Program-made: the position numbers and the translations under genes | Assembly (NCBI RefSeq): GCF_007748175.1 | Contig: NZ_CP037422.1 | Coordinates: forward strand, 3,788,020 to 3,852,019 | Length of the DNA stretch: 64,000 nucleotides | DNA from: Gimesia aquarii | Lineage (GTDB): Bacteria > Planctomycetota > Planctomycetia > Planctomycetales > Planctomycetaceae | Reading direction: 5' to 3' | Shown: piece after piece, positions 1-32,114 of the stretch | Numbering within the stretch: the stretch's first letter is position 1 | Layout of the letters: every line of letters begins with the position of its first letter | The notes under the pieces: generated by a model | Told to the model about the DNA's origin: nothing | Database searches by the model: none | The model's input: the letters and a program-made list of their open reading frames with translations, nothing else

Positions 1-4
1 AGAA

Positions 5-805
5 ATGAATGAACTTCTTTTGAGACTGAATGAAAAAGAAAGAGCTGGAAGCAAACCTCGTTGTCATTGGCTAACGCACGGTCAGGCAGGGATTGCGGAG
101 CGGTTGAATGGATTGCTTGAAGGGCACGGGAGCGTGTCCAGTGATGATATCTGGATGCCCTGCGGATTTGAGCAAATCACCGAGGCTCAGCTTCACAAAA
201 CTCCGCATTTGTTGAGCGATGAGCACTGTCAGACTCTGACTCGCTGGTGGCTGGCTGTGGGGGATCAACGGACGCGCACACCTTGTATTGATATTGCTTC
301 TACATGCACGATTGACGATCAGAAAGGGATTCTGATTGTTGAGGCGAAAGCTCACACCTATGAACTAGACAAAGAAGAAGCGGGCAAGTCACAGAAGCCT
401 GATGACAAGCTCAACACTCGACGAAACTTTCTAAGAATCGGTTGTTGCATCGACGAAGCCAATCTTGCACTGTCAGATCAAACAGGACTGTGTTGGAAGC
501 TGTCGCGCGATCACCACTATCAGATGTCCAATCGCTTTGCCTGGGCGTGGAAGTTAACCGAGTTGGGGTATCCCGTAGTCGTCGTCTATCTCGGATTCTT
601 GAACGCTGAAGAAATGCGCAGCGGGCCATCAAAACGACCATTTCTGAGTAACAAGGAATGGGAGACTTGCGTCAAGTCGCACAGCAAGTCTTTGTTTCCT
701 GAAAGTGTCTGGGGTAGCCGACACATTGTCCACGGTCAGCCGTTTATTTCACTCATCAAATCACTTGATATTTCGTACGACTCTCTGATCTCGGAGGCCA
801 CATGA
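5..805 (+). CDS. PD-(D/E)XK nuclease-like protein upstream of HsdR
   Basis: A 266-residue protein of no family I can name with certainty. Residues 93-115 carry a possible PD-(D/E)XK core: Asp96 in a hydrophobic context (PCIDIAS), then a beta strand ending in Glu113-Ala-Lys115 (ILIVEAK). This is the spacing expected of restriction-type or repair nucleases, so a DNA-cleaving or DNA-binding role is inferred. The stop overlaps the hsdR start by 4 nt (ATGA at 802-805), so the two are translationally coupled and probably work in one restriction system. The ATG lies four bases inside the window, so its ribosome binding site and any earlier genes (HsdM and HsdS would be expected) are not visible. No signal peptide or membrane segment is seen. 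Confidence 0.6.
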   Translation: MNELLLRLNEKERAGSKPRCHWLTHGQAGIAERLNGLLEGHGSVSSDDIWMPCGFEQITEAQLHKTPHLLSDEHCQTLTRWWLAVGDQRTRTPCIDIASTCTIDDQKGILIVEAKAHTYELDKEEAGKSQKPDDKLNTRRNFLRIGCCIDEANLALSDQTGLCWKLSRDHHYQMSNRFAWAWKLTELGYPVVVVYLGFLNAEEMRSGPSKRPFLSNKEWETCVKSHSKSLFPESVWGSRHIVHGQPFISLIKSLDISYDSLISEAT

Positions 806-3741
806 AAACGGACACATCCGAACATGGCCTCGAAAGCCTGATCGTCAAATCGCTCACGTCTGCAGGCTGGGCGGCTGGGCTGCCGAGTGATTTCGACCGG
901 GCGTATGCGGTCGATTTGAAGCAACTTCAGCAGTTCATCGAAGCGACTCAGCCGCTGCTAATCGAAGCGTTCGATCTGGAGACCGATGGACCAACCCGCC
1001 GTAAGTTTCAGGCTCGGTTACAGGGCGAGATCACCAAACGGGGAACGATCGACGTGTTGCGGAACGGTCTCAAGCACGGACCGCATCATGTGGACCTGTT
1101 CTATGGTACTCCGACGCCAGGAAACTCAAAAGCGGAAGAACGATTTGCCGCCAACCGTTTCAGCGTCACCCGGCAACTGCGTTACAGCCAGGACGAAACA
1201 CAACTGGCCCTCGACCTGGGCCTATTCATCAACGGCTTACCAATCTCTACATTCGAGTTGAAAAACAGCCTCACCAAGCAGACGGTCGAAGATGCAGTCT
1301 GGCAGTATAAACGGGACCGCGATCCGCGAGAGCTGTTATTCGAGTTCGGTCGTTGCATAGCTCATTTCGCCGTCGACGATCACGAGGTCCGCTTCTGCAC
1401 GCATCTGAAAGGGAAATCGTCCTGGTTCCTGCCTTTCAATCAGGGCTACAACGACGGTGCCGGGAATCCACCGAACCCCGAGGGAATCAAAACGGATTAC
1501 CTGTGGAAGAGGATTCTGACTCCAACCGGGCTGACAAACATCCTGGAGAACTTCGCCCAGGTGGTGAAATCGAAGGATGAAAAGACCGGCCAGAAAAAAC
1601 GCACGCAAATCTGGCCCCGATTCCACCAGTTGGATGTTGTGCGCAAGTTGCTGACAGACGCCGAAGCACGCGGCATCGGCCAACGGTATTTGATCCAGCA
1701 CTCAGCCGGGAGCGGTAAGTCCAACTCCATTGCATGGCTGTCTCATCAGTTGATCGGCCTGAAGCATGACGATAAAGAAATCTACGACTCTATTATCGTC
1801 ATCACCGATCGCCGCATTCTGGACCAGCAGATTCGGGACACGATCAAGCAGTTTGCTCAGGTTGGTGCTACGGTCGGGCATGCGGAACACTCCGGTGATC
1901 TGCGATCGTTTATTTCGCACGGCAAGAAAATCATCATTTCGACCGTCCAGAAGTTCCCCTTCATTCTGGATGAAATCGGTAGCGAACACAGAACCCGGAG
2001 CTTCGCGATCATCATTGATGAAGCCCACTCCAGCCAGGGAGGTAAAGTCGCAGCAGCGTTGAACGTGGCTCTCTCGGAAGCCGGTGAGGAACAGGAGGAC
2101 GAAACGACCGAGGACAAAATCAACCGGGTGATGGAAGCCCGCAAACTGCTGCCGAACGCCAGCTATTTCGCCTTTACAGCCACCCCCAAGAACAAAACTC
2201 TGGAAATCTTCGGAGAACCATATCCGGAGGATGGCGAGACCAAACACCGCCCCTACCACAGTTATTCGATGAAGCAAGCGACTCAAGAAGGCTTTATCCT
2301 GGATGTGTTAAAGTCATACACTCCGGTTTCCAGCTATTATAAACTGGTCAAGGCGATTGATGAAGATCCTCAGTTTGATAAGAAAAAGGCTAAGAAGAAG
2401 CTCCGCAAGTATGTCGAAAGCAACGAACATGCAATTCGTCTCAAAGCGGAGATTATAGCCGACCATTTTCACGAACAGGTGATCGGCCTAAAGAAGATCG
2501 GTGGCCAAGCACGTGCGATGATTGTAACCAGCGGAATTGAGCGAGCAATCCAATACTTCCACGCCCTCAGTGACTATTTACAGGAACGCAAAAGCCCCTA
2601 CAAAGCAATTGTCGCGTTCTCTGGCGAACATGAGTACGGCGGCCAGAAAGTGACAGAGGCGTCACTCAACGGGTTCCCCAGCAACAAGATTGCCGACATG
2701 ATTCAAGAAGATCCATACCGCTTTCTGATCTGCGCCGACAAATTCCAGAACGGTTACGACGAACCACTACTTCACACAATGTACGTCGACAAACCACTAT
2801 CGAGTATCAAAGCCGTACAGACACTCTCCCGTCTCAACCGGGCACACCCTCAAAAACATGACGTGTTCGTACTTGACTTCATGAACGACACCGACACAAT
2901 CCAGGAAGCGTTTGCCCGATACTACCGTACCACAATACTGAGTAAAGAGACCGATCCCAATAAACTACACGATTTGAAGAGTGATCTGGACGGGTACCAG
3001 ATTTACGCCCCAGAAAACGTTGACGAGTTGGTAAGGCTGTATCTGGATGGAGCTGATCGGGACAAGCTAGACCCGATCCTCGATGCCTGCGTGGCCACCT
3101 ATAGTGAGGATCTGGATGAAGACGGGCAAGTCGAATTTAAAGGGAAGGCAAAGATATTCTGTCGTACCTACGATTTCCTCGCATCAATCCTCCCCTACTC
3201 TAACGCGAGTTGGGAACGGCTATCGATCTTCTTGAACTTTCTGGTTCCGAAACTCCCCGCTCCGAAAGAGGAAGACCTCTCAAAGGGAATTCTCGAATCC
3301 ATCGACATGGACAGTTACCGCATCGAAAAACACGCTGCCATGCAGATTCAGCTTCCAGACGGAAACGCAGAAATTGAACCAGTTCCTACCAGTGGTGTTG
3401 GACGCAAGCCGGAACCAGAACTGGACAATCTCTCTAATATCGTTAAAGCCTTCAACGACCAGTTCGGCAACATCACCTGGACCGACGAGGACCGCATCCG
3501 CAAACTGATCACAGAGGAGATTCCTGCCAAAGTCGACGCTGATCCGGCCTACCAGAATGCCAAAAAGCAAGGTGACAAAAGCAAGGCCCGTATCGAACAC
3601 GACGCCGCCCTAAGCCGCGTCATCGTCGGGCTACTCAACGACGACACCGAACTATTCAAACAATACAGCGACAACGAAGGCTTCAAACGCTGGCTGGCTG
3701 ATACAGTGTTTGGATTAACTTATAACAAAGGGACAGCATGA
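802..3741 (+). CDS. hsdR: Type I restriction enzyme, R (HsdR) subunit
   Basis: A 979-residue HsdR, close to the usual length of about 1,000. HsdR translocates DNA with an SF2 motor and cuts it with an N-terminal nuclease. The N-terminal domain holds the PD-(D/E)XK site (Asp138, then Glu152-Leu-Lys154). Walker A is at 301-307 (SAGSGKS), the DEAH box at 406-409, and motif III (TATPK) follows. A helicase C-terminal lobe with a motif resembling VQTLSRLNR comes next, and the C-terminal third is helical as in subunits that dock on the methyltransferase core. The start is fixed by GGAGG five bases upstream and by the ATGA overlap with the preceding gene. The end overlaps the next gene by 4 nt. No HsdM or HsdS is present downstream, so they must be upstream of the window, elsewhere, or lost. 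Confidence 0.93.
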   Translation: MKTDTSEHGLESLIVKSLTSAGWAAGLPSDFDRAYAVDLKQLQQFIEATQPLLIEAFDLETDGPTRRKFQARLQGEITKRGTIDVLRNGLKHGPHHVDLFYGTPTPGNSKAEERFAANRFSVTRQLRYSQDETQLALDLGLFINGLPISTFELKNSLTKQTVEDAVWQYKRDRDPRELLFEFGRCIAHFAVDDHEVRFCTHLKGKSSWFLPFNQGYNDGAGNPPNPEGIKTDYLWKRILTPTGLTNILENFAQVVKSKDEKTGQKKRTQIWPRFHQLDVVRKLLTDAEARGIGQRYLIQHSAGSGKSNSIAWLSHQLIGLKHDDKEIYDSIIVITDRRILDQQIRDTIKQFAQVGATVGHAEHSGDLRSFISHGKKIIISTVQKFPFILDEIGSEHRTRSFAIIIDEAHSSQGGKVAAALNVALSEAGEEQEDETTEDKINRVMEARKLLPNASYFAFTATPKNKTLEIFGEPYPEDGETKHRPYHSYSMKQATQEGFILDVLKSYTPVSSYYKLVKAIDEDPQFDKKKAKKKLRKYVESNEHAIRLKAEIIADHFHEQVIGLKKIGGQARAMIVTSGIERAIQYFHALSDYLQERKSPYKAIVAFSGEHEYGGQKVTEASLNGFPSNKIADMIQEDPYRFLICADKFQNGYDEPLLHTMYVDKPLSSIKAVQTLSRLNRAHPQKHDVFVLDFMNDTDTIQEAFARYYRTTILSKETDPNKLHDLKSDLDGYQIYAPENVDELVRLYLDGADRDKLDPILDACVATYSEDLDEDGQVEFKGKAKIFCRTYDFLASILPYSNASWERLSIFLNFLVPKLPAPKEEDLSKGILESIDMDSYRIEKHAAMQIQLPDGNAEIEPVPTSGVGRKPEPELDNLSNIVKAFNDQFGNITWTDEDRIRKLITEEIPAKVDADPAYQNAKKQGDKSKARIEHDAALSRVIVGLLNDDTELFKQYSDNEGFKRWLADTVFGLTYNKGTA

Positions 3742-4649
3742 TGACACGATTCGATCCCATTCCGCCAAGCATATGGTCGGAAGGTATTCTCCAAATCCCC
3801 CCACGAGTTGTTTGTGATTATCGTTGTGAGTTAGATGCATTGGGTCGCTACGAGAACGCTAGCGGTCAGTCACCTAAGAATCTAATTGGAGGTATCGATG
3901 AGCAAGCTACCCATGATCATTTCACATGGAGGTTCGGTGCATCGTGTGTTCGCACTGAATACCTCATGCTCGACCCACGAGGGTTACTCGCACCTGTTTC
4001 AACAGATATCTTAAAATGCTTTTCTGAAGGTCGAATAGCGGTACTTGACATCCCTTGTGGTACGGGGCCTGGTATTCTTGGTTTTCTAGGACTTGTTGCT
4101 GAACTTCGTGTTCGTGGCTGTTTACCAAAGCAACCCCTGGAGGTTGTTATAACGGCGGGTGATATCTCTGAATCCGCACGTCAACTCTACGATAGCATGC
4201 TGAATAAAGCAAAACCATGGCTCAAACACGAGGGAGTTCGAGTCAAATGGAAAACATATTCCTGGGATGCAGGGGATGAACCATCCACTGCAGAACTTGT
4301 CGACAACTGGTTTAGTGAGTCTCCTAACTTTGAGGAGCATGTCGTGCTTACCGCTGCTTTTTCAGGAGAGGCAGCCAACAACTTCGAAACTTTTGAAAGA
4401 TCTTTTAATCACGTCGCCTCTCGTTTGTATAACAAATGTGGCACTATCATCTGGGTAGAGCCCAAGATGAATGATGCAAATAAACTACTCTCTAAACTAA
4501 CAAACATGTTTAAATCGATATTTCCAAAATGGTTCGGAATTGAGCCAGAACTCGAAGATAAATACAAATGGCAACACCCATTTCGAGAAGACCAACTTAA
4601 TGGTAGTCTTGTTGTTCTTAGACATAAGCGTCTGGAGGATCATAGTTGA
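3738..4649 (+). CDS. Putative SAM-dependent methyltransferase-like protein coupled to a reverse transcriptase
   Basis: A 303-residue cytosolic protein. Residues 102-112 read as class I SAM-methyltransferase motif I (VLDIPCGTGPG). A plausible motif II acidic strand follows (ITAGDIS, about 139-145), and a later strand (TIIWVEPK) may be motif IV or V. No DNA-methyltransferase catalytic motif such as DPPY or PCQ is seen, so the substrate is unknown. It is not HsdM-like in length or motifs. The gene starts within the hsdR stop (ATGATG with AAAGGGA upstream) and its stop lies inside the TTG start of the reverse transcriptase gene, so all three are coupled. Base composition is visibly more AT-rich than hsdR, which suggests that this gene and the RT were added to the restriction locus as a pair. 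An accessory role to the RT is inferred from position only. Confidence 0.55.
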   Translation: MMTRFDPIPPSIWSEGILQIPPRVVCDYRCELDALGRYENASGQSPKNLIGGIDEQATHDHFTWRFGASCVRTEYLMLDPRGLLAPVSTDILKCFSEGRIAVLDIPCGTGPGILGFLGLVAELRVRGCLPKQPLEVVITAGDISESARQLYDSMLNKAKPWLKHEGVRVKWKTYSWDAGDEPSTAELVDNWFSESPNFEEHVVLTAAFSGEAANNFETFERSFNHVASRLYNKCGTIIWVEPKMNDANKLLSKLTNMFKSIFPKWFGIEPELEDKYKWQHPFREDQLNGSLVVLRHKRLEDHS

Positions 4650-6382
4650 CTCCTGAAGTTCAAGTAATCAGAGCATTGAATTCGTGTAGATCGCTACACA
4701 AGCCAACATATGTTGGACTACGAGCACTTCTTGACTCCGATTCTGATCGAGATCGACTTACCTGGCTTTGCCAAGTTGCGATGAGAAGAGTTCAAACACG
4801 CTCAGAGTGGCGGTATTTCAAATATCGCACATTGAAAGAGATTGAGAAGGACGGAACGCCAACTTACCGCGAATGCATAGCTGGAAGCCCTACGACTCTG
4901 ATCGCAGAAGCATACGTTCTTTCGATGATGGCACAAGAACAAGCGTTTGCCCCCCCAGCCAACGTATATAGCTATCAATGGCCCCGAAGCGATCGAGGTG
5001 GACGGAACTTTCAGTATTATCAGCACGGATTCGCACGAAGAAACTATCGAATCACTGAACTTCTTCGTAAATATCCAAGTCATGTTGCTATAGTTGGTGA
5101 CATTAGAAGATTCTATCCAAGCGTGAGATGGACATTTCTCGAACCCATAATCCAGAAACGTCTAGCTAAAGTCGAATCAGTATCAGACAGAAGAATTATT
5201 GGTAACTTTTTAATGGGAATGAAACCAAACTCAGGATCGGGCATTCCGATCGGAACAGACGTTTCCCATGTATTAGGAAACATAGCTCTTGAAACACTTG
5301 ATGAGGGTTTAGCGACCGAGTTCGGTGACAGCTATTTCCGATATGTAGATGACATCGTAATTGTTTGTCCCGCAGAGGATAGAGATCGAGTTACTCAAAA
5401 AATTCGAAGCTACGTCAGAAACATCGATCTAAAAATGCATGAAGGCAAAGACGATGTCGTCGACTCATCAACATGGGTTTCAAATTGTCCAGTAATTCCT
5501 CAAAAACCAGTTTCAGGGTCATTCGAGGCATTACTCCATGATATCTGTATTTATCTTTTTCTCTGGCCCCATTATCTAGAACCTTTGCAGAAAGCGTTCG
5601 TATCGGAGGGATTCACAATTCCTTTTGGGAGACTTGTGACTCAATCAAAATATCGTCCTTACAGGCACTTTGCGCGAAGCCTATTACGAAAAAATGGGTG
5701 GTATGACGTCCCACGTCTTTTTTTAACCAAAGTGCAAGGATTGATTGCTGCCGCAAAAAAAGTCCGCGAGACACTCATCTCAACTCTTCGCGAGTTAGGA
5801 AGCAGAAAAATACCAGCTGAAGGTATGCAACGTCGTTGGTTTGTTCAACAATGCAGATATAACATCAATCGGCTTCTCTATCTATTTAGCCCAGCTGAGT
5901 ATTCTAAGCTCCTGGAGAAGATCCCTGATGGTCAAGAGTTCGCAGAATACCGCATTCTCTTAGGCGTATTAATCTCAAGTGATGTTACAGATATACTCCA
6001 ACTCCCGGGGCACGTACTCGCAACATTCTGCGAACTTGCTTCGGAACAGAATCCTCCAGAGATTCCAGTGACAATAGCTGACTTAAGGGATCGTAGCATT
6101 GCTGAAAGCGTCACAATGCTTGCACTTTACTTTGGATGGAAGGTGCCCGATTCACAGAGTACCAATATGTTTCGTGGAAGTAAGATGCTACTAGAAATCT
6201 GTAGTGGTGGTATCTCAAGAGATAATCTTCCTGATGAAATGTCATACCTTGACGAATTGGAACTCCTATATCGTGATGTACCTCAGGCGCACCTTGCAAA
6301 ACTGGCCCGTACTCGCTTTGCAGAAGGAGAAGAAATCGGATTAGAAGGGCTTTTGCTAGGAGGCGGTTATGGAGTTAGTTAA
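4646..6382 (+). CDS. Long reverse transcriptase, UG/Abi (defence-associated) type likely
   Basis: A 578-residue RNA-directed DNA polymerase. Motif A is at about 150-160 (GDIRRFYPSV, catalytic Asp152). Motif B is at about 198-212 (SGIPIGTDVSHVLGN). Motif C is YVDD at 233-236, with a Val instead of the common Ala. The RT fold ends near residue 290. The remaining 290 residues are predicted largely helical, without a maturase or HNH signature, which argues against a group II intron and resembles the long UG/Abi RTs used in phage defence. Retron RTs are usually much shorter. The start is TTG at 4646, chosen because GGAGGA lies six bases upstream at 4634-4639 and because it overlaps the previous stop (TTGA). 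No obvious retron msr-msd was recognised. Phage defence is inferred from gene context. Confidence 0.85.
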   Translation: MTPEVQVIRALNSCRSLHKPTYVGLRALLDSDSDRDRLTWLCQVAMRRVQTRSEWRYFKYRTLKEIEKDGTPTYRECIAGSPTTLIAEAYVLSMMAQEQAFAPPANVYSYQWPRSDRGGRNFQYYQHGFARRNYRITELLRKYPSHVAIVGDIRRFYPSVRWTFLEPIIQKRLAKVESVSDRRIIGNFLMGMKPNSGSGIPIGTDVSHVLGNIALETLDEGLATEFGDSYFRYVDDIVIVCPAEDRDRVTQKIRSYVRNIDLKMHEGKDDVVDSSTWVSNCPVIPQKPVSGSFEALLHDICIYLFLWPHYLEPLQKAFVSEGFTIPFGRLVTQSKYRPYRHFARSLLRKNGWYDVPRLFLTKVQGLIAAAKKVRETLISTLRELGSRKIPAEGMQRRWFVQQCRYNINRLLYLFSPAEYSKLLEKIPDGQEFAEYRILLGVLISSDVTDILQLPGHVLATFCELASEQNPPEIPVTIADLRDRSIAESVTMLALYFGWKVPDSQSTNMFRGSKMLLEICSGGISRDNLPDEMSYLDELELLYRDVPQAHLAKLARTRFAEGEEIGLEGLLLGGGYGVS

Positions 6383-6847
6383 AGTATCTGCAATGTCGAT
6401 AGCAAATTATGAACTGTTCAGAATTCTCAAATCCCTGATGCAGGCTGCTTTCATATAATCATCTCCCATTCCCTCTATGATTCTTGTCTACCTTGCTCAA
6501 TCGTTAATTCCCCAAAGTTTACTCTTCAAGCGATCTAAGTACTTATTGGATTGGATAAGAACATCTTGCTGTATCGAAGAAATATTTTTGGGCCTTTAAT
6601 ATTGACGTTTTCTTACAACTTGTAATGACGCCGCCCAGAAGCATCTTACTTTAATTTCGTACTTTTTCCTCTCAATGTCGGCTTCTTGCGTGAATGGTGA
6701 AGGCAGGAAGGATATAATGGCCTCATCACGCTTACTAGTGAACCTAAAACCAGTAACCCGATAACTAAGGAAAAGTATAATAATGGAAGATGTAAGAGGG
6801 GCTCTCTGGACTCAGAGATAGCAATTCTAATCCTAAGGGTGTATGAA
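6383..6847 (+). other. Intergenic region between the RT operon and ietA
   Basis: About 465 bp without a convincing gene. Two TATAAT boxes (6713-6718 and 6776-6781) on the + strand could serve an ietA promoter, but neither has a good -35 at 16-18 bp. No strong terminator was seen after the RT gene. A small RNA partner of the RT could lie here or inside the operon, but nothing structured enough to call was found by eye. Confidence 0.4.
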
Positions 6848-7846
6848 ATGAAAGCTGAAATGCTCAAGAGACTTGTCCGAGCAATTGCAAAAGGATCACA
6901 GGACGACCTGGATCGTCTGGCTGATCTAATCGTTGAATCTGAGCGTAAAAGCGGGCATGTCCGTTTAGCAGGACAACTTGAATCGATTCTCGATGACAGA
7001 TCAAAGAAGGAACATCCTAGCCGAAACAGCATCGATTCGGATCGTACTATTCGGGAACTGCCGATTAGTCGTCGCCATCGCGAGATGCTGGTCAGTTTTA
7101 TTCCGCACAATGCTCTCGAACATCACATCGTCCTGCGACCAGATATTGATGAACGTTTTGAGAGGATTGAGAAAGAATTCGCAGCTCGTGAAAGACTGTC
7201 TGCCTATGGACTTAATCCACGCAAAAAAGTCCTACTCTATGGTCCTCCTGGTTGCGGAAAGACTCTGGGAGCCAAACGTATCGCCTGGAACACCGGTTTG
7301 CCGTTGATGAAGATAAGGTTCGATGCCTTGGTCTCGTCATACTTTGGTGAGTCTGCATCGAACCTTCGGGCTGTATTTGACGCTGCTCGGGAACAACCTT
7401 GTGTGCTACTTCTCGATGAGTGCGACTTCATAGCTCGTTCACGTATAACGTCGAAGGATATTGGTGAGGTAGCCAGAATCGTCAATACGCTTTTGCAGTT
7501 GATGGAGGAATATGATGCTCCAGGGCTGTTAATCGCTACTACGAATATAGAATCATCATTGGATGAAGCTCTGTTTCGTCGATTCGACGATGTGTTCCAA
7601 GTCCCCATTCCAGGTAAGGAAGAGATTCGAAAGCTGCTATCATTAACACTATCCAGTATAGAACAATCAAAGTCCATTAATTGGAACAAAGTAGTCGAAC
7701 AGCTTGAGGGAGTGTCAGCAGCACATGTCGTTCGAGTTGCCCAAGCAGCTGCTAAAGCTGTGGTGCTATGCGGCGAGCGTATCGTCAAACAAAAACACTT
7801 TGAAGTAGCTATCTCTGAACTTAAGAGCCCCAACGAGACTGCCTGA
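6848..7846 (+). CDS. ietA: AAA+ ATPase, IetA-like component of the IetAS defence pair
   Basis: A 332-residue cytosolic AAA+ ATPase. Numbering from the chosen ATG, Walker A is at 132-139 (GPPGCGKT), Walker B at 186-191 (VLLLDE), and a sensor 1 strand (IATTN) and an arginine-finger-like region (LFRRFDD) follow. The first 100 residues are a separate helical domain. It is followed 14 nt downstream by a subtilisin-like protease, the two-gene order of the known anti-phage system IetAS. The start chosen is ATG 6848, with AAGGG eight bases upstream, in preference to an in-frame GTG at 6839 that sits on top of the ribosome binding site. By analogy the ATPase is thought to gate or remodel targets for the protease; the mechanism is not known to me. 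Confidence 0.85.
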   Translation: MKAEMLKRLVRAIAKGSQDDLDRLADLIVESERKSGHVRLAGQLESILDDRSKKEHPSRNSIDSDRTIRELPISRRHREMLVSFIPHNALEHHIVLRPDIDERFERIEKEFAARERLSAYGLNPRKKVLLYGPPGCGKTLGAKRIAWNTGLPLMKIRFDALVSSYFGESASNLRAVFDAAREQPCVLLLDECDFIARSRITSKDIGEVARIVNTLLQLMEEYDAPGLLIATTNIESSLDEALFRRFDDVFQVPIPGKEEIRKLLSLTLSSIEQSKSINWNKVVEQLEGVSAAHVVRVAQAAAKAVVLCGERIVKQKHFEVAISELKSPNETA

Positions 7847-7860
7847 TGAAGTAGGAATCG

Positions 7861-10458
7861 ATGCCAAACGGACATAATTTTCAACATCTTCCGTTGCTTC
7901 GTCGGGAAAGTGGCCCAGCACAATTGGGACGCCCACCTCGCGAATCACAGAAAACACGAGACAATAAGTCAGACCGGACTAGTCACAGTGGTAACCTGTT
8001 TGGCAGTGCATTCTCAGTCTCAAATACACGAAAATCAGTTGAAACCGACAGAGTAGCCAAATCATTCCCTGATCTCCAAGCCGGACTTGCGCTTCTCCTC
8101 CAAATCGACACAAGTCTCGATGTTGATAAACTTCGACGACTCTTTGACTTTGAGATCGTGGCTGAGGAAGAAGACGGCTATGTCATCGTAGCAAGTGAAG
8201 ATATTGATCTTGTAAAGTTCAATAAAGCGGTAGCTGGATTTGCTGGTTCCGTGCATGGCACCGGCATTGTTGCAAGTATTCATCGCCTCGACGAAGATCC
8301 AGATCAGAATCTTCGACTTCAACTGATTCTTTCCGAGACCCTGTATGAGTTATGGCCTAACATAGATGAAACAGCAGTTTATCAAGTTGACATCGGAGTC
8401 ACATGCCTGGGAATCAAACAAATCCCGGATGAACCCCAGAAAAGGAAACGTGAATCGGATGTTGAATTTGCTCGACGCCAAAGTGAATGGTCGAATAATC
8501 GCATAGAAGTTTACGACTCGTGGTACGATCTACAGGATGAACGTACTCAAGAAGTGAGCCGCATAATCGTTAATGGTTATGGTGGCTCAATCGATAGCAT
8601 TCAACATGATGAACCAGCAATTTCGCTGCCTGACAGTTTTACAATGCGAATACAGGTCAATGGAAAAGGGCTGAAAGACTTCGTGTTCAACTACCCTTAC
8701 CTGTTTGAAGTTGTCGAACCGGATAACATCTCGTTGACAAGGAGCAAGGCGGAACCAGGAGAAGAAGTCGAACCTAATCAGATAACTGCACCACCAACAG
8801 GCGCTCCTGCCGTATGCATAATTGATAGTGGCATACAAGAAGAGCATGTGTTGCTTGAACCATCCATAGATAAAGAATCGTCCCACTGCTTTCTACCACC
8901 GCCTGAATCTCCAACTGACGTCGCTGATCATGTCTGGCCTGCTGGTCACGGGACTCGTGTTGCTGGAGCCGTCCAATATGGAGAACAAGTTAAGCGAGAT
9001 GGGCCCTATCAACTTCCGTTCTGGATTCAAAATGCCAGAATACTAGATGCCGAAGCATCTCTTCCATATTCGCTTATGCCCGCAGCTGTAATCCGTGCAG
9101 TGATAGAACGATATCACTACGGCCCACGTCAAACAAGAATCTTCAATCATTCAATAAATGCTGACTGCCACTGTCGACTGAGGCATATGTCAGCTTGGGC
9201 CGCTGAAATCGACATGCTCTGTCATCAGTTTGATATTATGATTGTACAAACGGCTGGAAATCTTCGGGAAAGAGCGCATGTTCCAAGCGCTGGAATTCTC
9301 GACCATCTTGATGCAGGACGATTATATCCATATTACTTAGTTGAAAGATCATCGCGAGTCGCGAATCCAGGACAAAGCTTTCAGGCTCTGACTGTTGGCT
9401 CAGTCGCATATCAAATGTATGAGTCCTCAGGATGGAAGAGCTTTGCAACTCAACCAGGGCATCCGTCGAGCTTTAGTCGATCTGGATTCGGTATTTGGAA
9501 TGTCATTAAGCCTGAGGTTGTTGAGTTTGGTGGCGATGATCTACAATCTCCGGGATCACAAACACTACTTGGTAATCCTTCGGAAGGACGAGCATGTTAT
9601 CCAGAACTAGTAAGATCGACCATGCATCCACCAGGACCTGCGTATGACAGAGACGAGGTTGGAACATCATTCGCTGCCCCCAAAGTCACCCACATCGCTG
9701 CCCACTTACAACGTGTTTTGCCAAACGAGCCATGTTTACTTTATAAAACTTTGATTGTGCAATCTGCTCGCTGGCCAGAATGGACGAATACAGACGAAGT
9801 GGATACGAATCAGGTCATCCGCACGCTTGGGTACGGTATTCCAGATCTCGAACGAGCAACAACGAATACAGATTACCGTACTACTTTGATTACATCTGGT
9901 GAAACAAGCATCAACGCTGGCAACTGTGATCTATATCAAGTTCCTATTCCTGAATCGATGCGACAACCAGGATATGAATATGACATCCTTGTCGAAGTCA
10001 CATTGTCATATGTTGCCGAGCCACGGAGAACGAGAAGAAACCTACGACGCTATCTTTCAACCTGGGTTGACTGGAAAAGTAGCAAGCTTGGTGAGTCACT
10101 TTCTTCATTCCGCTCGCGTGCCCTGAAAGAAGAGGAAGCAGAGGAAAATACAGCAGCAGGAGATACACTGCGATGGAAACTGGCAACACGTACTGATCAT
10201 GGAGATATTGATGGAGCGAAGAGAAATTCTGGCACTGTGCAGAAGGATTGGGCGATTATAAAATCGTTCCAACTCCCCGAAAATTTTTGTATTGCAATTA
10301 TGGGACACCAAGGGTGGAGTAAAGATCCTGATTCTGAAGCGAAATACTCGCTTGCCGTGAGCTTTGAAGTCATCGGTCGAGAAATTTCAATTTACGATGA
10401 TCTTCGGATCGCAGTTGAAGATCTGCAGGTTGAGTTGGAAGCCGAAGTCGAAACTTAA
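7861..10458 (+). CDS. ietS: Subtilisin-like (S8) serine protease, IetS-like defence component
   Basis: An 865-residue S8 family protease without a signal peptide, so probably cytosolic. The catalytic triad is complete: Asp322 (CIIDSG), His363 (GHGTRVAG) and Ser603 (GTSFAAP), with the oxyanion-hole Asn467 (TAGN). About 310 residues precede the peptidase and 150 or more follow, as in the IetS family rather than in secreted subtilases. Start at ATG 7861 with AGGA six bases upstream. It forms an operon with the AAA+ ATPase gene. In the known IetAS system both genes are needed for phage resistance; that function is transferred here from family and gene order. Confidence 0.85.
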   Translation: MPNGHNFQHLPLLRRESGPAQLGRPPRESQKTRDNKSDRTSHSGNLFGSAFSVSNTRKSVETDRVAKSFPDLQAGLALLLQIDTSLDVDKLRRLFDFEIVAEEEDGYVIVASEDIDLVKFNKAVAGFAGSVHGTGIVASIHRLDEDPDQNLRLQLILSETLYELWPNIDETAVYQVDIGVTCLGIKQIPDEPQKRKRESDVEFARRQSEWSNNRIEVYDSWYDLQDERTQEVSRIIVNGYGGSIDSIQHDEPAISLPDSFTMRIQVNGKGLKDFVFNYPYLFEVVEPDNISLTRSKAEPGEEVEPNQITAPPTGAPAVCIIDSGIQEEHVLLEPSIDKESSHCFLPPPESPTDVADHVWPAGHGTRVAGAVQYGEQVKRDGPYQLPFWIQNARILDAEASLPYSLMPAAVIRAVIERYHYGPRQTRIFNHSINADCHCRLRHMSAWAAEIDMLCHQFDIMIVQTAGNLRERAHVPSAGILDHLDAGRLYPYYLVERSSRVANPGQSFQALTVGSVAYQMYESSGWKSFATQPGHPSSFSRSGFGIWNVIKPEVVEFGGDDLQSPGSQTLLGNPSEGRACYPELVRSTMHPPGPAYDRDEVGTSFAAPKVTHIAAHLQRVLPNEPCLLYKTLIVQSARWPEWTNTDEVDTNQVIRTLGYGIPDLERATTNTDYRTTLITSGETSINAGNCDLYQVPIPESMRQPGYEYDILVEVTLSYVAEPRRTRRNLRRYLSTWVDWKSSKLGESLSSFRSRALKEEEAEENTAAGDTLRWKLATRTDHGDIDGAKRNSGTVQKDWAIIKSFQLPENFCIAIMGHQGWSKDPDSEAKYSLAVSFEVIGREISIYDDLRIAVEDLQVELEAEVET

Positions 10459-10736
10459 GAGAACCATGACACACTCTTGATTCTACTGCCCTTCAACTTC
10501 ATTCTCCTCACAAGTACCAAAAGCCGCAAGCATCTCAGAGAATTAGCCCAAGTTTTGTATCCGATCCGTGACCAGAAATCCGTTCTCAGGAACCTGATGG
10601 ACCTTGCCGATATTATTCAACCATATACCAGGAAGTCACACATTTCCCATCCAGAATAAGTTGCCCCTGATCAGTTTGATCAAATATCTGCAGATCGAAG
10701 AGCTGGCGCGACGTTTTCTATGGCGGAAACCAGTGA
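10459..10736. other. Gene-poor stretch after ietS
   Basis: About 280 bp with no credible ORF on either strand. It lies downstream (on the - strand) of the decayed helicase and may contain further eroded helicase sequence, but I could not recognise conserved motifs in it. Confidence 0.4.
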
Positions 10737-11354
10737 TCACCTTTCCGATATTGGGAGGCATAAAGTGAACACCAGCCTTATAATAAAATCTACGACATCG
10801 TCTCCATGGAACGTATTTATATGTGAATTACTTCGCGTTCTTTGATCGAGTTCTTCATCCATCCGATCGTTTAGCCAACGACTCAGTTGTCGATTGAAAC
10901 ACAGAAACAGAGTGCTGAGGTCGGAGAGTGCATATTTGACAGCCCGCCAAAGGCCGAGCACTGTCTATCCGGTGCCAGCATATCCTCGGACTGCAAGCCG
11001 CTGATTTTCGCTTAATCCGTCGAGTACTAATTGCAGCTGAATGGTTAATGTGACCAGTTGTCCTTAATCTTTTTCCAAATCTTGCCATTTTGCAGTCATC
11101 AAACCAAAAACGGGTCGCAAATGCTGTCGACAGATCCGCGTTGCACCTGGACTGATCGACGGATTCTTACAACAATTCCTTCGTTTAAATGCACCTTTAA
11201 CTACTCACCCCATGTAGTCAAGATAGTCAGCAAGAAATACGATACTGGGGTCCCCTTGGTTCGGAAGCACACCTTTGTTGGTTTGATCAAGAAAACAAAC
11301 CGCATTTTCGAAGCACCCTCCATACCAGGAAGGTAGATCATCAATCTTTGTCAT
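10737..11354 (-). pseudogene. Decayed superfamily 1 (UvrD-like) helicase
   Basis: A single - strand frame from an ATG at 11352-11354 reads as protein for about 200 codons but is interrupted by at least three stops. The first part (starting MTKIDDLPSWYGG) ends at a TGA. Further on, the frame gives the motif I region of an SF1 helicase (LSENQRLAVRGYAGTG), where the expected Lys codon is TAG, then LFLCFNRQLSRWL and, about 25 residues later, INTFHG. This order (GxAGTGKT, LCFNR, TFHG) is typical of UvrD-like helicases with the AAA_22-type Walker A. The remaining helicase motifs are missing. The ATG overlaps the stop of a fragment upstream (ATGA), so this was once the second gene of an operon. Confidence 0.65.
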
Positions 11355-11515
11355 CCTACTTTCAGCTCGATTCTGGGAACTTCATTGTGTTTGACCAGTT
11401 TCATTTTTAGAAGCAGGTCAAACATGTCGATGTCGATTAGATAGACGGGATACGCACTTCAATGTGCACCGCCTGACACATCGACATTTTCAGGTACTGT
11501 ATACAGCACACCACT
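11351..11515 (-). pseudogene. C-terminal remnant of an unknown gene, truncated at the edge of the ExbBD locus
   Basis: The - strand frame ending with TGA at 11351-11353 reads continuously back to about 11515, with one internal TGA at 11459-11461. The readable part has a natural protein composition (ISGVLYTVPENVDVSGG, then SAYPVYLIDIDMFDLLLKM) and ends in PRIELKVG. Its 5' part is absent because the stop codon of the neighbouring secreted-protein gene lies within a few bases. It overlapped the helicase start by 4 nt. I cannot name the family. The abrupt loss marks a recombination junction near 11,515-11,525. Confidence 0.45.
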
Positions 11516-11522
11516 GATGAAA

Positions 11523-12152
11523 TCATTTTGTTATCGTGCATTCTCCGAATATCTCAATTGCCTGCTTCACTATCAAAGGCGGTAGACGCTGTTTGTCCAC
11601 TACGTACCATCCCCAAAGGTCTGCCGAGTCTTCCTTACATCCAGCAGCCTTGTAAGCTGCGTCGTGAATCGCCTTGTGCTCCTCAGCTGTGAACACCTTT
11701 CCATCAGCAGGCTTCCTGGAAAGATATTCTTCTTGCAGTTTGATACGAATTTTGTTCTGCGGTGTTTTTGTACCAGTGACTATGCAAGCTGAAATCGCGT
11801 TTTTCTGGAATGCTTCTGTCACGAATTTCGAAACTATCAGATGAGAATAAAACTTCTCGCAGCCATCAATCGCGGCAGATGGAAAAGGGATTAAGACGTA
11901 TTCTTTTTGGCCGAGTAAGTACTTCAGAAGCTTAATGTTTTGTTCGGCGGTACCGCTATAGAAATCCTGAGGCCACTGTTTGAGATAGAGAGCCTTACGA
12001 TTATTGAAACTCGAATCAAGACCGATAGAATTCATGTAATCTACGACTGATACCGGTTCCGGAGGCTTCGCAGTGCAGCGCTCCGATGAACCGATCAACC
12101 AGAATGTCGACACCGCTACTAACAGAACATTTCGTATACTTTTATTCGCCAT
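11523..12152 (-). CDS. Small secreted protein, last gene of the ExbBD/giant-protein operon
   Basis: A 209-residue protein with an N-terminal signal peptide (basic MANKSIR, then a hydrophobic stretch, with cleavage plausible near residue 29). The mature part has several Cys residues (DGCEKF, ISACIV, AAGCKE, GECTI) that could form disulfides in the periplasm, and no domain I recognise. ATG 12152 has GGGGAAAG seven bases upstream and lies 13 bp after the stop of the preceding gene, so it is probably cotranscribed with it. A Cys plus a following HDAA-type segment is not enough to assign an enzyme. Its place behind an NlpC/P60-like secreted protein suggests a partner or effector role; this is inference. 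Confidence 0.6.
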   Translation of the reverse strand: MANKSIRNVLLVAVSTFWLIGSSERCTAKPPEPVSVVDYMNSIGLDSSFNNRKALYLKQWPQDFYSGTAEQNIKLLKYLLGQKEYVLIPFPSAAIDGCEKFYSHLIVSKFVTEAFQKNAISACIVTGTKTPQNKIRIKLQEEYLSRKPADGKVFTAEEHKAIHDAAYKAAGCKEDSADLWGWYVVDKQRLPPLIVKQAIEIFGECTITK

Positions 12153-18000: not shown

Positions 18001-18682
18001 CCGCCAAATCTGCATTAACGAACGAGAAGAATGCTGAAAGGGAGAAGAAAGTTGAGACGGTCGCAAATACACCCACAGAAAGGACGCTCAGAAGTGTATC
18101 AGAACTCGAGACATTATGGACATATGGCCATCGAATAGAATAAGCGGCAATTGCAGCCATGACTGCTAAAGAGATGAAAAGCTCCCAGATCCTCAACACG
18201 CTTGTCGTGATCTCGTCGAAAGTGACTTCAATATTTGAAAGTGTCAAAAGGCACAACACAAAAGCGGAGAAAACAATCGCCCAAGTAGTAATCTCTGACC
18301 TTGTACAGCCTTTTTCTCTCTTTGTTCTCGGCAGCATCCAAACAACTGTGAGCGCACCGACAATGGCAAAGAAGGCAGTGATACTGGGAAAAATGGTGGT
18401 TGTTCCGACTCGTGATACACAGATGATGCTGGCGAGCCAGGTAAATCCGAGGATCAAAACAGACACGATCAGGCTCTTTTGAAGTCTCAGGTTCTGAGAA
18501 TGGACAAAAATGACGCCTATTACAATCGGAGACACACACACAATCAGCGCTAGCCAAAAGGGAATCATCACAAGAACGGTCGTTGCTACCGAGGAAAAAA
18601 AAATGAGGGGTATGGGTAGGAGTAGTGCTTTAAATAACACGCGGGCAGCAGAGGATGCTTCTGTACTATCATGATTGGTCAT
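15098..18682 (-). CDS. MotA/TolQ/ExbB-domain protein of 1,194 residues
   Basis: The N-terminal 270 residues contain several hydrophobic helices, and a further membrane segment lies near 430-460. The middle (about 480-960) is soluble and beta-rich. Part of it, near nt 16,110 (starting APFGLKAVVE) and near nt 16,820 (DWASDWLEYQL), resembles the repeat unit of the giant neighbour. A Lys/Glu/Gln linker with six EEQ-type units follows. The last 140 residues form a MotA/TolQ/ExbB proton-channel domain: GAWLAPSFGFIGTIYGIGSAL, then a loop, then a segment starting SAVSQTLGSAFDTTMVAL and a final helix. The usual TolQ/ExbB has about 230 residues. The start overlaps the giant gene's stop (ATGA at 18679-18682) and the stop overlaps the ExbD-like gene. 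I infer the energising subunit of an envelope machine. Confidence 0.8.
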   Translation of the reverse strand: MTNHDSTEASSAARVLFKALLLPIPLIFFSSVATTVLVMIPFWLALIVCVSPIVIGVIFVHSQNLRLQKSLIVSVLILGFTWLASIICVSRVGTTTIFPSITAFFAIVGALTVVWMLPRTKREKGCTRSEITTWAIVFSAFVLCLLTLSNIEVTFDEITTSVLRIWELFISLAVMAAIAAYSIRWPYVHNVSSSDTLLSVLSVGVFATVSTFFSLSAFFSFVNADLAACKIELMKSHGDIEKLETAIREKKHKGISGKEVDELQKQLEYSRLLQSVVRALDQSPDFIVDENLEETLRGKIAGALLPVASLSFPSPEEDVAKKDDGARIQLTLANLWLMNSHGKAIWDIFDNLPSLALPGDSVQKNATEILEESCKFVLSGKPGLRIEEDSETTTPEASDTKASDADSATPDLKIQKFLTSPKYGQSALAEIGAFLTMESAPNGYWTRYLHTTVRGPIQYVTIIVFWASFLPAVSFILLLIRDSRNITWLKQELVIFHRVKRIKHAVYSNNSQEASTSLDFPTFGLRIEDPKIWTPNFVRCLKDDSSPSLELPSQEIATDKLPSDVQCIHTGDGKYNIQLALDGKSFDLGEVTVDQAEITGAKKHEDSNLEALNASGLDWASDWLEYQLNSAAKDAKGEFTFVVRQEPELTIFSLLVEVLQDPSTKKHSVHGSIKWHEQERESLVEQLRVKALAITKCTFSQAGKEINGRATLATTDAGVAENSLSLQWDFPNGTEVLKISNITLDLKLVPRIDLSRASIDNDDLKTICIRCLKLDEILMLPDHLEITTDRNSENCLADVRLMLPRTKDFSDEVDLPVALLRIKSTSESGIAKLLVTLEDHSSAAKTFANFYGSLKQSDSAPFGLKAVVEQNVPNSERPSIKFSHPETGEHVLTVCGITAPRSAKEEVRFDDLSVIEGKADFIKYLCSEYSISKVDLKVVIEKEEKKEKEEKGKQEEQEEQEEQEEQEEQEGGEHDKKGDNKNNVLRFDILESDDTESGSVIASFRMKVLSEAVVYDQQLYKNLQDVYVALSKYSDSQDTEELHACSLVTRVLNGACIMGTREAMYDVLEQGCNELDERTDLRMELVRYGAWLAPSFGFIGTIYGIGSALLGSEKMVTADEASQGSEISAVSQTLGSAFDTTMVALILSMGLVFLIHIATYLTSSLIITFRRFANDNLIELFEGPAVNFENGGDE
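15772..15825 (-). repeat. Six tandem 9-bp units encoding an EEQ-rich linker
   Basis: On the + strand the unit is CTTCTTGTT, with CTTCTTGCT in units 3 and 4, repeated six times without gaps. Read on the - strand in frame it gives Glu-Glu-Gln repeats between the soluble part and the channel domain of the ExbB-like protein. Because the period is a multiple of three, slippage would change linker length without breaking the frame. Confidence 0.85.
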
Positions 18683-21600
18683 TTGTGCTTAATCCGGCGT
18701 TGAGTAGTCAAAAGTGTTTTGAGATCATCCCTAAGTGTACATGCAACAATCCGTGACATCGTCTTCATCGACTGATGGTCTTTGTCGATCCAACTGTGGA
18801 ACTGTTTGTTTCCAGGTCGCTTTGGAGCAAAAGGATGGTCACTATCGGCTGCCAAAATAAGATATTTAGACAGTAATTCGTCAGTCCATTTTTCGACTTT
18901 TTGGCGATCTTCCGATGGAATTCTATCTTGCATCACCTGCAGATACATTATGAGCGATCGGGCTGTGTATAGGGTCTGATAATGAAACGGGAAATCGACG
19001 TCAGTCTGTCCTTTAAACTTCCATCCTTCTATACCAATCATTCGTTGGTGGTCAGACAACGTTCTTCGAGCGGCATGGCGTACTTTTTCTCGATTCTCCT
19101 CTTCATTGCCATCCTTGTTAGGAAAAAGTAGCGTCCCATTAATACTCTTGAACGGTAAGCAAGACAGGAGGTGTCCTGCCGAAAAATGGACATTCCCTAT
19201 ACCATTAGGCGTGTAGTTGCTATTGGAAGCGTATAAGAAGTACTCTCCTTTTTCACATTCTAGAGTGAAACTGTATGCTTTAGATAAAATGTCAAGATAC
19301 TTTTTTTCAGCTGCACCGTCATCACTCAATCCAAAAATAATATTCAAACGTCGATAATCAAGAGCGCCTTCTTGCTCAAGAGATGTGCGAATTCCATATA
19401 GTGCGGATTGAGTCAAACTCATATCTCGATTGCCGGAGAAAGGTGGGCTCAACTCATATGTCCACCCACCCTTATCGTGTTGGACAGCAATCAATGTCCT
19501 GATCATCGCGAGTTCCACCATTTCAAGCGTAATAACTTCATCCAGGTCACTAGAATCATTTCTAAATCGCTTTTGGATGTCCTCAGTCGGTATATATTCC
19601 TTTTCAGAACCAGTGGCAGCCAATCGTTTACGAATGCGTGACAACGTTTTCAGGAAAAACACGTGGTCGTATACCCGCGTACCTTTAATATAAGCAGTAT
19701 GCAGTTTCTTCCCCGCAACATTACGTTGTAGCACGATGAGTTTCTCCTGCAGTAGTTTTTTAAGAAGTGAGCCCAATTGCTTGTAATCGCTTGCTTCAGC
19801 GGGTATTTCATTCTCTGACGCGAACCCTTTAAGTACCTTTGTCAGTTCAATGTCAGACGCTGAAAGAACTTGTGCAGCGACTGTCAAGGAGTTCTTTCCA
19901 ACCTCGCCTTCTTTGGCAGAGTCTAAGCCTACGCGTCCCTTTCGTTCACGAAGCGCGGCATCCAGGGCGTCAATTTTTTCTGCGCTGACTACCGGTGGTG
20001 TTTCCTTACGTTTGATATTTGGTTTCTGAGAATCTCTTGGTTCGTCAGTTGGTTCTTTAAGCTTAGTCTCTTCCCAATCTTTTTGTTGCCCTTCTGCAGC
20101 GGCTTCGAGTTGTTTTGCTACCTTCTCGACAGCCTCAGAGATAGAATCTTTAAGTTCGTCTGCGATCCTCTTCGTCTCTTCATTCAACTGGGACAGCTCT
20201 GGCGACGGTTTCTGTTGTTGAGCAACCTTCGTTGCGGCTAACAATCGCTTGACTTTTTCGGCGGTTAATTGGGCCCGCTCAATTTTCTCAGCATTCTTCA
20301 ACGCTTCATTGACACGTTTTTGTCTGTCTTCTGGTCGGTCATCTTCAGGGTCAGGTGAAGCATCATCGTCTCCCATTTGTTCGAGGTTTTTCTGAGCGGC
20401 TGAAGACTCTTTTGCAAGTCTCTCCAATTCCATCTGAAGCATTGTGGGGTTAATACTAACCCTTGAAAGGAAATCCGTGTAGGTATCAATTTTTGCCGAA
20501 CTGTCTGGTAACTCTCTTTGATTCTCGACTGTCTGCTGGTATTTCTTTTGCTCAACCACAGCCTTCTCCGACGCGTCTTTGGCGGCCAGCGTCGCATCAG
20601 CTGCATCAGTTTCAGCTTGTGCATCAGTTGGTTGCTCTGCTGATTTCTGTGCGGCTTCAGCTGCCTCTTTCACCGATCCTGCTGCTTGTGCCTGTGTGTT
20701 GGCCGCTTCCTTAGCAGCCTGTGCTAATTCTTGCGCTTGCGCTGCCCGGACTGCTGCTTCTACTGATGAAGGGTTCTCGGCGGCGTTATCAGCTGCTTTC
20801 TTAGCCGCTCGTGTGGCTTCTTCCGCTGATGCTTTCGCGGTTACTGCAGCCTGAGCCTGTGTTTCTGCAGCTTTGGCCATGGCTGTTGCAACTTCACCGG
20901 CTTTGCTCGGGTCAGTTTGAGCTTGTGCTTGTGCCGACTGGGCTTGGGCCATGGCTTGGGCTGCAGCTTGTGATTGAGTCGTCGCCGACGCAGCCGCCTG
21001 CTGCTGATTTGCCGGGCCGCTTTTTTCTTTTTCTTCATTGCCTCTGGAGCTGTTCCTTGATTTGCGTTTCTTTTTCCCTCTCTTTCCACCAGCTTTCGGC
21101 CGGCTTTTCAGATTGCTTGGATCAGGCACGCCCCAGCTGGGCTTTTGAGTTAGTGCGTTAAAGAGCTCCTTCGGATCGAGGTCAAACTTTAGCTTCAAGC
21201 TATTCAATGCCACCTTCAGAATTGCTGCGTATGGCGCGGCCAGAAACACAGGTGCAGGGACTGTGTCATCGAAAGATGCCGTGCCCATGAAACACTCAGC
21301 TTCTCCATAGATTCGGGCGGTCTTCGCATTGCACTCCACATTAGCATCGATTCCAACTGCCATTGCATCGAGGTATGCACCGATTGAAAAGCTCGTTCGG
21401 TCCAACTCAAATCCTGGTGGCATCGTTCGCAATTTAGTCATAAATGATGTGTCTACCTCGCTCCCCAACCCAAATAACTCGACTCTTGCAGCCCCTTTTA
21501 CAGCGTCTTTGTCTGCCCTCACTTCGAGTTTTGACAGATCCTGCCCGAAAACAATGACCTGTTGTTTACCGTAAGCATGCCAATGCGGCTTGCCAGGCAA

Positions 21601-31767: not shown

Positions 31768-32114
31768 ATTTGGGGCCAAGAAAAAGTGACACTACGAACA
31801 CTAAGAACTTACAGACACTAGATCATAACGACACTCAATATTATTAGCAAATACTTTCCAGAGTTGACCTTGCTACTTAATCGAATTCAGAACCTGATAT
31901 ACTAATTAGGATTCTGATCTCCACCACATTTCTCGATCCAAGCAGGATCTGAGAATTTTTGTTATTGTATATATTTCCTAGGAGGAGCAGACTATGTGAG
32001 TCGGCACGATATTCGGAAGAATGGATCACATTTTTTTCAGGCAATTTAAACCTATCACTGCGGTGGCGGAGATCGTCAGCAAGATCAGGATCATCGAACA
32101 GAGGAACAGAGCTT
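31768..32114. other. Upstream region of the giant operon
   Basis: About 350 bp without a credible gene, between the start of the giant gene and the end of a small - strand gene. It should hold the operon's promoter. It is AT-rich, but I see no convincing -35/-10 pair on the - strand and no clear operator. Confidence 0.4.

Follow-up and report, generated by a model that had tools for sequence, protein, structure and literature searches.

A restriction operon that ends in a reverse transcriptase gene

We analysed a 64,000-nt stretch of the Gimesia aquarii chromosome (the window), which begins inside a plus-strand run of eight genes in the order hsdM, a gene for a 159-aa protein, gmrSD, hsdS, a gene for a nuclease-like protein, hsdR, and the two genes that are the subject of this report: one for an S-adenosylmethionine (SAM)-methyltransferase-like protein (MT) and one for a reverse transcriptase (RT) of group UG36 (Table 1). 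We describe how this MT-RT pair recurs behind restriction-modification (RM) operons and what it may do there. Throughout, G-numbers label genomes and L-numbers the stretches read around loci.

The three successive 4-nt overlaps that the initial annotation described as coupling four open reading frames (ORFs) are present, reading ATGA (802-805), ATGA (3738-3741) and TTGA (4646-4649), and all four ORFs are open on the plus strand in the ORF call. The run starts 6.9 kb upstream of the window. Its upstream part contributes the overlaps GTGA, ATGA and ATGA and a single 2-nt gap, the ATGA overlap of the hsdS/nuclease-like junction lying at 5-8; in all, six of the seven junctions are 4-nt overlaps. 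Because overlaps of this length are common in bacterial operons, they are weak evidence when taken alone, and it is the comparative data that carry the case made below. The "stoichiometric coexpression" that had been read from them does not follow from overlaps.

The operon is of type I, with HsdR, HsdM (N6_Mtase and HsdM_N domains) and HsdS all encoded within it. The identity first given to HsdR is borne out by Pfam matches to HSDR_N, SWI2_SNF2 and T1R_D3-like, by a match to REase_I (E 5.9e-44) and by one to TIGR00348 that stays under the cutoff (E 9.3e-58; 196 bits, cutoff 284.55). For the first ORF, a PD-(D/E)XK nuclease, as first proposed, is plausible from its motif and a weak NERD-Hel match (E 0.019) but unproven; in Pfam it finds only a sub-cutoff match to DUF1314. 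Three further genes inside the operon deserve mention in their own right, namely that for the 159-aa protein, that for the GmrSD_N protein, and hsdS, whose product has an extra C-terminal domain also found on the type I methyltransferase model PDLC03039 (E 2.3e-41).

Table 1. Features of the window and of the genes just upstream. Positions without a prefix are those of the window; L004 is the stretch that holds the upstream genes.
Feature	Position	Strand	Remark
Window	G000:C1:3788020-3852019		on a 7.2-Mb chromosome
Upstream genes: HsdM (735 aa), 159-aa gene, GmrSD_N protein (743 aa), HsdS (648 aa)	L004 8168-15028	+	first four genes of the run
159-aa gene	L004 10372-10851	+	PD...EAK motif by eye; no family match
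GmrSD_N protein	L004 10854-13085	+	between hsdM and hsdS
HsdS	L004 13082-15028	+	extra C-terminal domain at about 450-634
Nuclease-like protein, 266 aa	5-805	+	D...EAK motif by eye; between hsdS and hsdR
HsdR, type I restriction subunit, 979 aa	802-3741	+	Pfam, PADLOC, NCBIfam
MT, SAM-methyltransferase-like partner, 303 aa	3738-4649	+	match to N-terminal part of RT_UG35; motif residues
RT, group UG36 reverse transcriptase, 578 aa	4646-6382	+	TTG start; RT_UG36, RVT_1; D152, Y233-V234-D235-D236
IetA (AAA ATPase)	6839-7846		defence pair with IetS; NCBIfam score under cutoff
IetS (subtilase)	7861-10458		defence pair with IetA; NCBIfam score under cutoff
Block of six genes	11523-31779	-	
4366-aa ORF	18679-31779	-	in the six-gene block

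The UG36 reverse transcriptase and its constant partner

The RT matches the PADLOC model RT_UG36 over its full length (E 2.5e-161; residues 4-575 on profile positions 3-555 of 557) and Pfam RVT_1, which agrees with the long RT of the initial annotation. Its second-best PADLOC model is RT_UG17 (E 1.4e-21), and its core also matches RT_UG35 at 423-594 (E 4e-13). Set against UG, retron and DRT models, as had been suggested, it falls in UG36; the NCBIfam models for retron, group II, Drt2, Drt3a and Drt4 RTs match far under their cutoffs. We rejected a retron (retron_St85 at 34.1 bits against a cutoff of 235, no Rfam match, and an MT gene that overlaps the RT start) and a group II intron RT (TIGR04416 at 46.5 bits against a cutoff of 300, no Rfam match). 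The RT is, on its sequence, a member of a known group with its usual partner and no new RT class. The catalytic residues D152 and Y233-V234-D235-D236 (YVDD) are intact in it and invariant in all 11 loci compared below. UG36 has been catalogued, with a predicted role in defence, but is uncharacterised; we take the group to go back to Mestre et al. 2022.

Relatives were sought with the PADLOC UG36 model at E 1e-40, and the source genomes are included in the counts. The group was found in 5 of 397 genomes of the host's class, 4 of 397 of the phylum of Arcobacter vandammei (and 5 of 104 of its family) and 2 of 44 of the family of G622. Among plasmids, a single record, that of Aliarcobacter faecis (G711, counted once), held a UG36 match covering 80% of the query. 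Genome profile searches supplied most of the sample, and a pattern scan of genome contigs caught two relatives. With the plasmid match and the contig scan there were 12 distinct loci, of which G1051 was dropped because the contig start cuts its RT, leaving 11; seven of these come from a phylum other than the host's. Four scans of viral contigs, including pattern scans in which 130 and 45 matches led to 23 and 24 loci, gave no full-length UG36 RT and no MT relative, only distant RT cores. Five phage records matched, with core matches only.

An MT gene stands directly before the RT gene in all 11 readable loci. Nine of the junctions overlap by 4-11 nt and two are gapped (1 and 4 nt), the RT start in G769 being an internal ATG. 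The MT tree and the RT tree contain the same five groups (the window with G1171, G1027 with G1125, G769 with G804, G622 with G1006, and an Arcobacteraceae trio), which supports joint inheritance as far as so few groups allow. MT and RT thus look like one two-gene unit. All 11 MTs also match the RT_UG35 model (best E 2.3e-13), and in the two cases for which the place is shown, the match lies N-terminally, at 81-169 of 938 for the window MT and at 74-164 for that of A. faecis. Since in the RT_UG35 model an MT-like part precedes the RT within one protein, MT and RT probably act together, an argument of the fusion type.

At E up to 0.1, neither Pfam nor NCBIfam yields a match for MT, and the PDB has no sequence relative of it at E up to 10. 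The 29 residues invariant among the 11 relatives include G108, G110, D142, F208-S209-G210 and E241-P242. The SAM-binding-like label of the initial annotation draws on a GxG motif, the invariant D142 and E241-P242 and a fold match of low confidence, and methylation is an activity that we infer. The AlphaFold model of MT is weak (pLDDT 55.9), and the Foldseek matches shown have low TM and mix various SAM methyltransferases with dehydrogenases, the former being the best. With assorted folds, low TM and a weak model, a substrate cannot be read from these matches.

One could suppose that the RM system has in MT a true DNA methyltransferase of its own and that only the RT is a passenger. MT is SAM-binding-like and adjoins RM genes, and there are weak matches to mad2 (2 of 11 MTs, best E 0.00024) and to a type II methyltransferase model (1 of 11, E 0.0032). 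However, the RT_UG35 match is found in every MT, the (D/N/S)PP(Y/F/W) motif of DNA methyltransferases is absent from all 11, the operon has its own HsdM, and MT accompanies the RT also at the five loci where no RM genes were seen. We consider this explanation highly improbable and rejected it.

We also weighed whether the pair is a class 2 DRT whose template is a flanking noncoding RNA, as in DRT2, DRT9 and DRT10. The second-best model, UG17, is that of DRT10, and the best solved relatives of the RT, whose own AlphaFold model is weak (pLDDT 46.7), include Drt3a, Drt2 and 9ioa, which we take to be DRT9. In addition, G622 (L038 14593-14700) and G1006 (L072, just above 5175) share, at 80% identity, a stretch of about 110 nt immediately before MT, a candidate leader, promoter or small RNA. 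Against a flanking RNA, Rfam gave no match at E up to 1 in window positions 1-12000, and MT overlaps hsdR in the window, which leaves only the 456-nt downstream gap. The flanks of the Arcobacteraceae trio also argue against one: the RTs are 86-94% identical, and the one match between their flanks, 182 nt after the RT in two of the three, looks like the tail of a protein gene on the minus strand. We regard a class 2 DRT as doubtful. In the passages of PMC12632851 and PMC13174585 that treat them, the DNA made by class 1 UG RTs is untemplated, and cis RNAs are used by those class 2 systems that have been studied.

Restriction operons that carry the pair

Six of the 11 pairs end an RM operon. The initial annotation had allowed that the overlap with hsdR might be a local accident, the pair always being found elsewhere without hsdR; instead, type I genes precede the pair at five loci and type III genes at a sixth. 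The first is that of the window, whose HsdR carries SWI2_SNF2 and HSDR_N domains. The next three form the Arcobacteraceae trio (the A. faecis plasmid; Arcobacteraceae STC_79, G392; and Arcobacter vandammei, G393), in which HsdR, HsdM and HsdS are followed by a variable cassette and then by MT-RT; the A. faecis HsdR is annotated as of the EcoAI/FtnUII family. In G1171, genes for HsdR, HsdS and HsdM, in this order, precede MT-RT by 35 nt, and its HsdR has the EcoEI_R_C domain in common with that of A. faecis, at 27% identity. The sixth, G1027 (L080 3150-17607), has in one run a type III Res-Mod pair, a UvrD-type helicase and a RecD-like PDC-S68 protein, with MT-RT starting 58 nt after the preceding gene. 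Judged by gene order and low identity, these are counted as four distinct RM operons (three type I, one type III), and each may have been joined to the pair independently. In G769, G804, G622, G1006 and G1125, searches with our own references and models found no type I or III gene in stretches reaching 12.5-14.9 kb upstream and 2-5 kb downstream of the pair, type II genes not being sought as such.

Within the trio, DNA identity is 81-85% over the hsdR-hsdM block and 87-96% over the MT-RT block, and the cassette between them differs: it consists of LmuAB, which we take to be Lamassu, of OloAB (presumably Olokun) with a gene for a 292-aa protein, or of two unknown genes. Since the blocks are conserved and the cassette is not, hsd and MT-RT stayed in place while the cassette between them was exchanged. 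The cassettes between hsdS and MT at L030 4814-9069 (OloAB and the 292-aa gene) and L031 7193-9057 (the two unknown genes) hold candidate defence genes by position.

Operons of the window's kind also occur without the pair. The closest HsdR orthologues are those of G121 (87%), G878 (73%) and G968 (70%), and tblastn found neither MT nor RT in the stretches read around them, the G878 contig being 7.4 kb long. G121 keeps the order hsdM, gmrSD, hsdS (43% identical) and hsdR; behind hsdR (L070 476-5970) it has genes for HD-CE, ORC-CDC6-like, CARF6 and C5-methyltransferase proteins, and the host-class profile search found no UG36 in its genome. In G968, the position of MT is taken by a gene for a 538-aa protein that has a 4-nt overlap with hsdR. 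Base composition sets the pair apart as well: in the window operon the GC content at third codon positions (GC3) is 36.5% for MT and 35.4% for RT against 61.9% for hsdR, 63.2% for gmrSD and 57.6% for hsdM. The GC3 of the 159-aa gene is also low (38.8%). A GC3 drop in the same direction is seen in G1171 and, less clearly, in G1027. On plasmids, HsdR homologues are common (750 records at E 1e-100, mostly below 60% identity), whereas UG36 is rare. Given the orthologues without the pair, the GC3 drop and this difference on plasmids, the pair is best taken as something added to an operon of a common kind. This supports the earlier suggestion that the 3' end of an hsd operon received an RT module, as do the five of 11 pairs around which no type I or III genes were seen in the stretches read. 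Type I operons also come out as carriers of exchangeable cassettes, LmuAB, OloAB, HD-CE/ORC-CDC6-like and UG36 among them.

A proposed second layer behind restriction, its rivals and known counterparts

We favour, with moderate confidence, the reading that MT-RT is a UG36 two-gene unit that recurs as exchangeable cargo at the 3' end of RM operons, where it would serve as an autonomous anti-phage second layer. In this model, the pair could be made from the same message as the RM genes and would act as an anti-phage effector of its own. Upon infection the RT would make DNA, as other UG RTs do, and MT would bind SAM and control or modify the RT, its RNA or its product. Behind an RM system, the pair may form a second layer against phages that escape cleavage, analogous to PrrC in the EcoprrI operon.

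A possible, if less probable, alternative is that only a defence-island neighbourhood is seen: RM operons and UG36 pairs would both live in islands and at times come to share a transcript, with no functional tie, and the overlap would be a by-product of selection for shared transcription. This would suit the five pairs without type I or III genes, the other cargo that the window's kind of hsd operon carries elsewhere, the occurrence of HsdR homologues in 750 plasmid records but of UG36 in one, and the presence of IetAS just downstream in the window. IetA is the next gene, starting 456 nt past the RT. A simple scan of 6300-6900 gave one promoter-like site, as many as shuffled sequences give, and no terminator-like site. 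With IetAS, the region looks like a defence island. Beyond it, the minus-strand block encodes, besides the 4366-aa ORF, a 1194-aa protein with C-terminal MotA/ExbB and has four smaller genes nearly without Pfam matches.

We compared the UG36 loci with controls from the host class. HsdR and HsdM profile models were rebuilt without the proteins of each locus, those of the whole trio being removed together; orthologues from G121 and G968 stayed in the models for the window, and in this setting HsdM alone detected the trio. A single sequence, from G1027, makes up the type III model, so G1027 is not one of the five positive loci given below. The type I genes that were counted fall within 12 kb of MT, except that those of the window were sought in a stretch of its own, L004. 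The IetA control comprised 39 of 45 matches; the window's own IetA, which lies beside the hsd operon, was dropped, together with five others, most of them close to a contig end, incomplete or interrupted by a stop codon. The RT control comprised 38 of 72 non-UG36 matches, one from each genome and with enough contig around it as far as could be judged, five stretches being shorter than 9 kb. The stretches were 20-30 kb for UG36 and up to 16 kb for the controls, some of them cut by contig ends.

Type I genes lay near 5 of the 11 UG36 loci, near 1 of 39 IetA loci and near 1 of 38 other-RT loci, both control cases being on the opposite strand (pooled, 2 of 77, none on the same strand). Fisher's test gave p 0.0012 against IetA and 0.0013 against other RTs; with the trio counted once (3 of 9), p was 0.017 and 0.019. 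When the window's own IetA was added (2 of 40), p was 0.0033 for 5 of 11 and 0.037 for 3 of 9. When the comparison was confined to the host class, 2 of 4 stood against 2 of 77 (p 0.011). This enrichment and the four distinct RM operons speak against a mere neighbourhood.

Several observations weigh against the reading that we prefer. The loci are few, 11 with three near-copies, and p ranges from 0.007 to 0.037 by control when the trio counts once. In the draw from the host's phylum, UG36 was found in 1 of 392 genomes, the sole one being the window's own. In A. faecis, the GC3 of MT and RT is no different from that of the RM genes. An RM system is not needed for the persistence of the pair, since around 5 of 11 pairs the stretches read show neither type I nor type III genes. 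One kind of HsdR is common to two of the type I operons; moreover, the window and G1171, the RM-linked pairs of the host class, are sister lineages, so that a single attachment, followed by a move of the pair from one operon to another, may account for both. By parsimony, the RM label changes three times on the RT tree, two of the changes being forced, and it is no more clustered than shuffled labels, which were as low in 109 of 500 cases; the pattern fits repeated gain or loss better than one old association, but it also fits a label without history. Some of the clustering may reflect defence islands, and the anti-phage role of UG36 is a prediction here.

A functional tie to restriction, for instance action when restriction fails, had been proposed in the initial annotation; it is plausible and fits the repeated linkage. 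Restriction enzymes of type I and of type III alike use SAM and ATP, and the linkage recurs with operons of both types. One form of such a tie would be a guard, in which the pair is kept inactive by the RM enzyme and set free once a phage blocks restriction, MT sensing SAM or the Hsd complex. There is a precedent in EcoprrI and PrrC, as far as passages of PMC3874165 and PMC2610378 describe it. In contrast, no RM genes were seen with 5 of the 11 pairs, and the four RM operons differ and have no obvious common surface; a guard is in our view unlikely. We see only a small chance for a more specific form, in which type I and III RM operons use the UG36 pair as a built-in fail-safe and MT reads the state of SAM or of the RM complex. 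Loss of restriction, through an anti-restriction protein or the destruction of SAM by a phage, would then free the RT to make toxic or signalling DNA. If this holds, a reverse transcriptase and restriction would be wired together. Between the second layer that we prefer and a guard, what UG36 does becomes a concrete test, of whether the RT pair backs up restriction or is guarded by it.

What the comparison adds is a constant partner for UG36, MT, in the loci seen, a tie of this partner to the fused UG35 model, and linkage of the pair to several RM operons. By title, our literature search, which did not take in Mestre et al. 2022, gave no paper on UG36 RTs or on UG35 or UG36 RTs with a methyltransferase; the repeated RM linkage may be new, and the partner or the linkage may already be in print. 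The full-length RT_UG36 match places the window RT with known UG36 RTs. It resembles UG35 RTs through both the MT matches and the RT core, but UG35 holds the two parts in one model of 938 positions, whereas the window has them as two overlapping genes, with an RT that clearly stands closer to UG36. DRT10 (UG17), the second-best model, has a SLATT partner and a cis noncoding RNA in the passages of PMC12632851 concerned; the window RT has an MT-like partner, and the trio shows no conserved flanking RNA. AbiA and AbiK are RT-type abortive-infection genes in or near RM operons, according to the parts of PMC8934634 that were searched. They belong to other RT groups, and those parts mention no methyltransferase; the AbiA passages found when RTs with type I operons or hsdR were looked for do not describe the present arrangement either. 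In position, the pair resembles PrrC, which, in the passages of PMC3874165 that deal with it, lies within the EcoprrI type IC operon and is set free upon phage T4 infection. In both cases a second defence effector would be carried inside a type I operon; the likeness is one of operon position only, PrrC being an anticodon nuclease (tRNase) and the effector of the window a reverse transcriptase.

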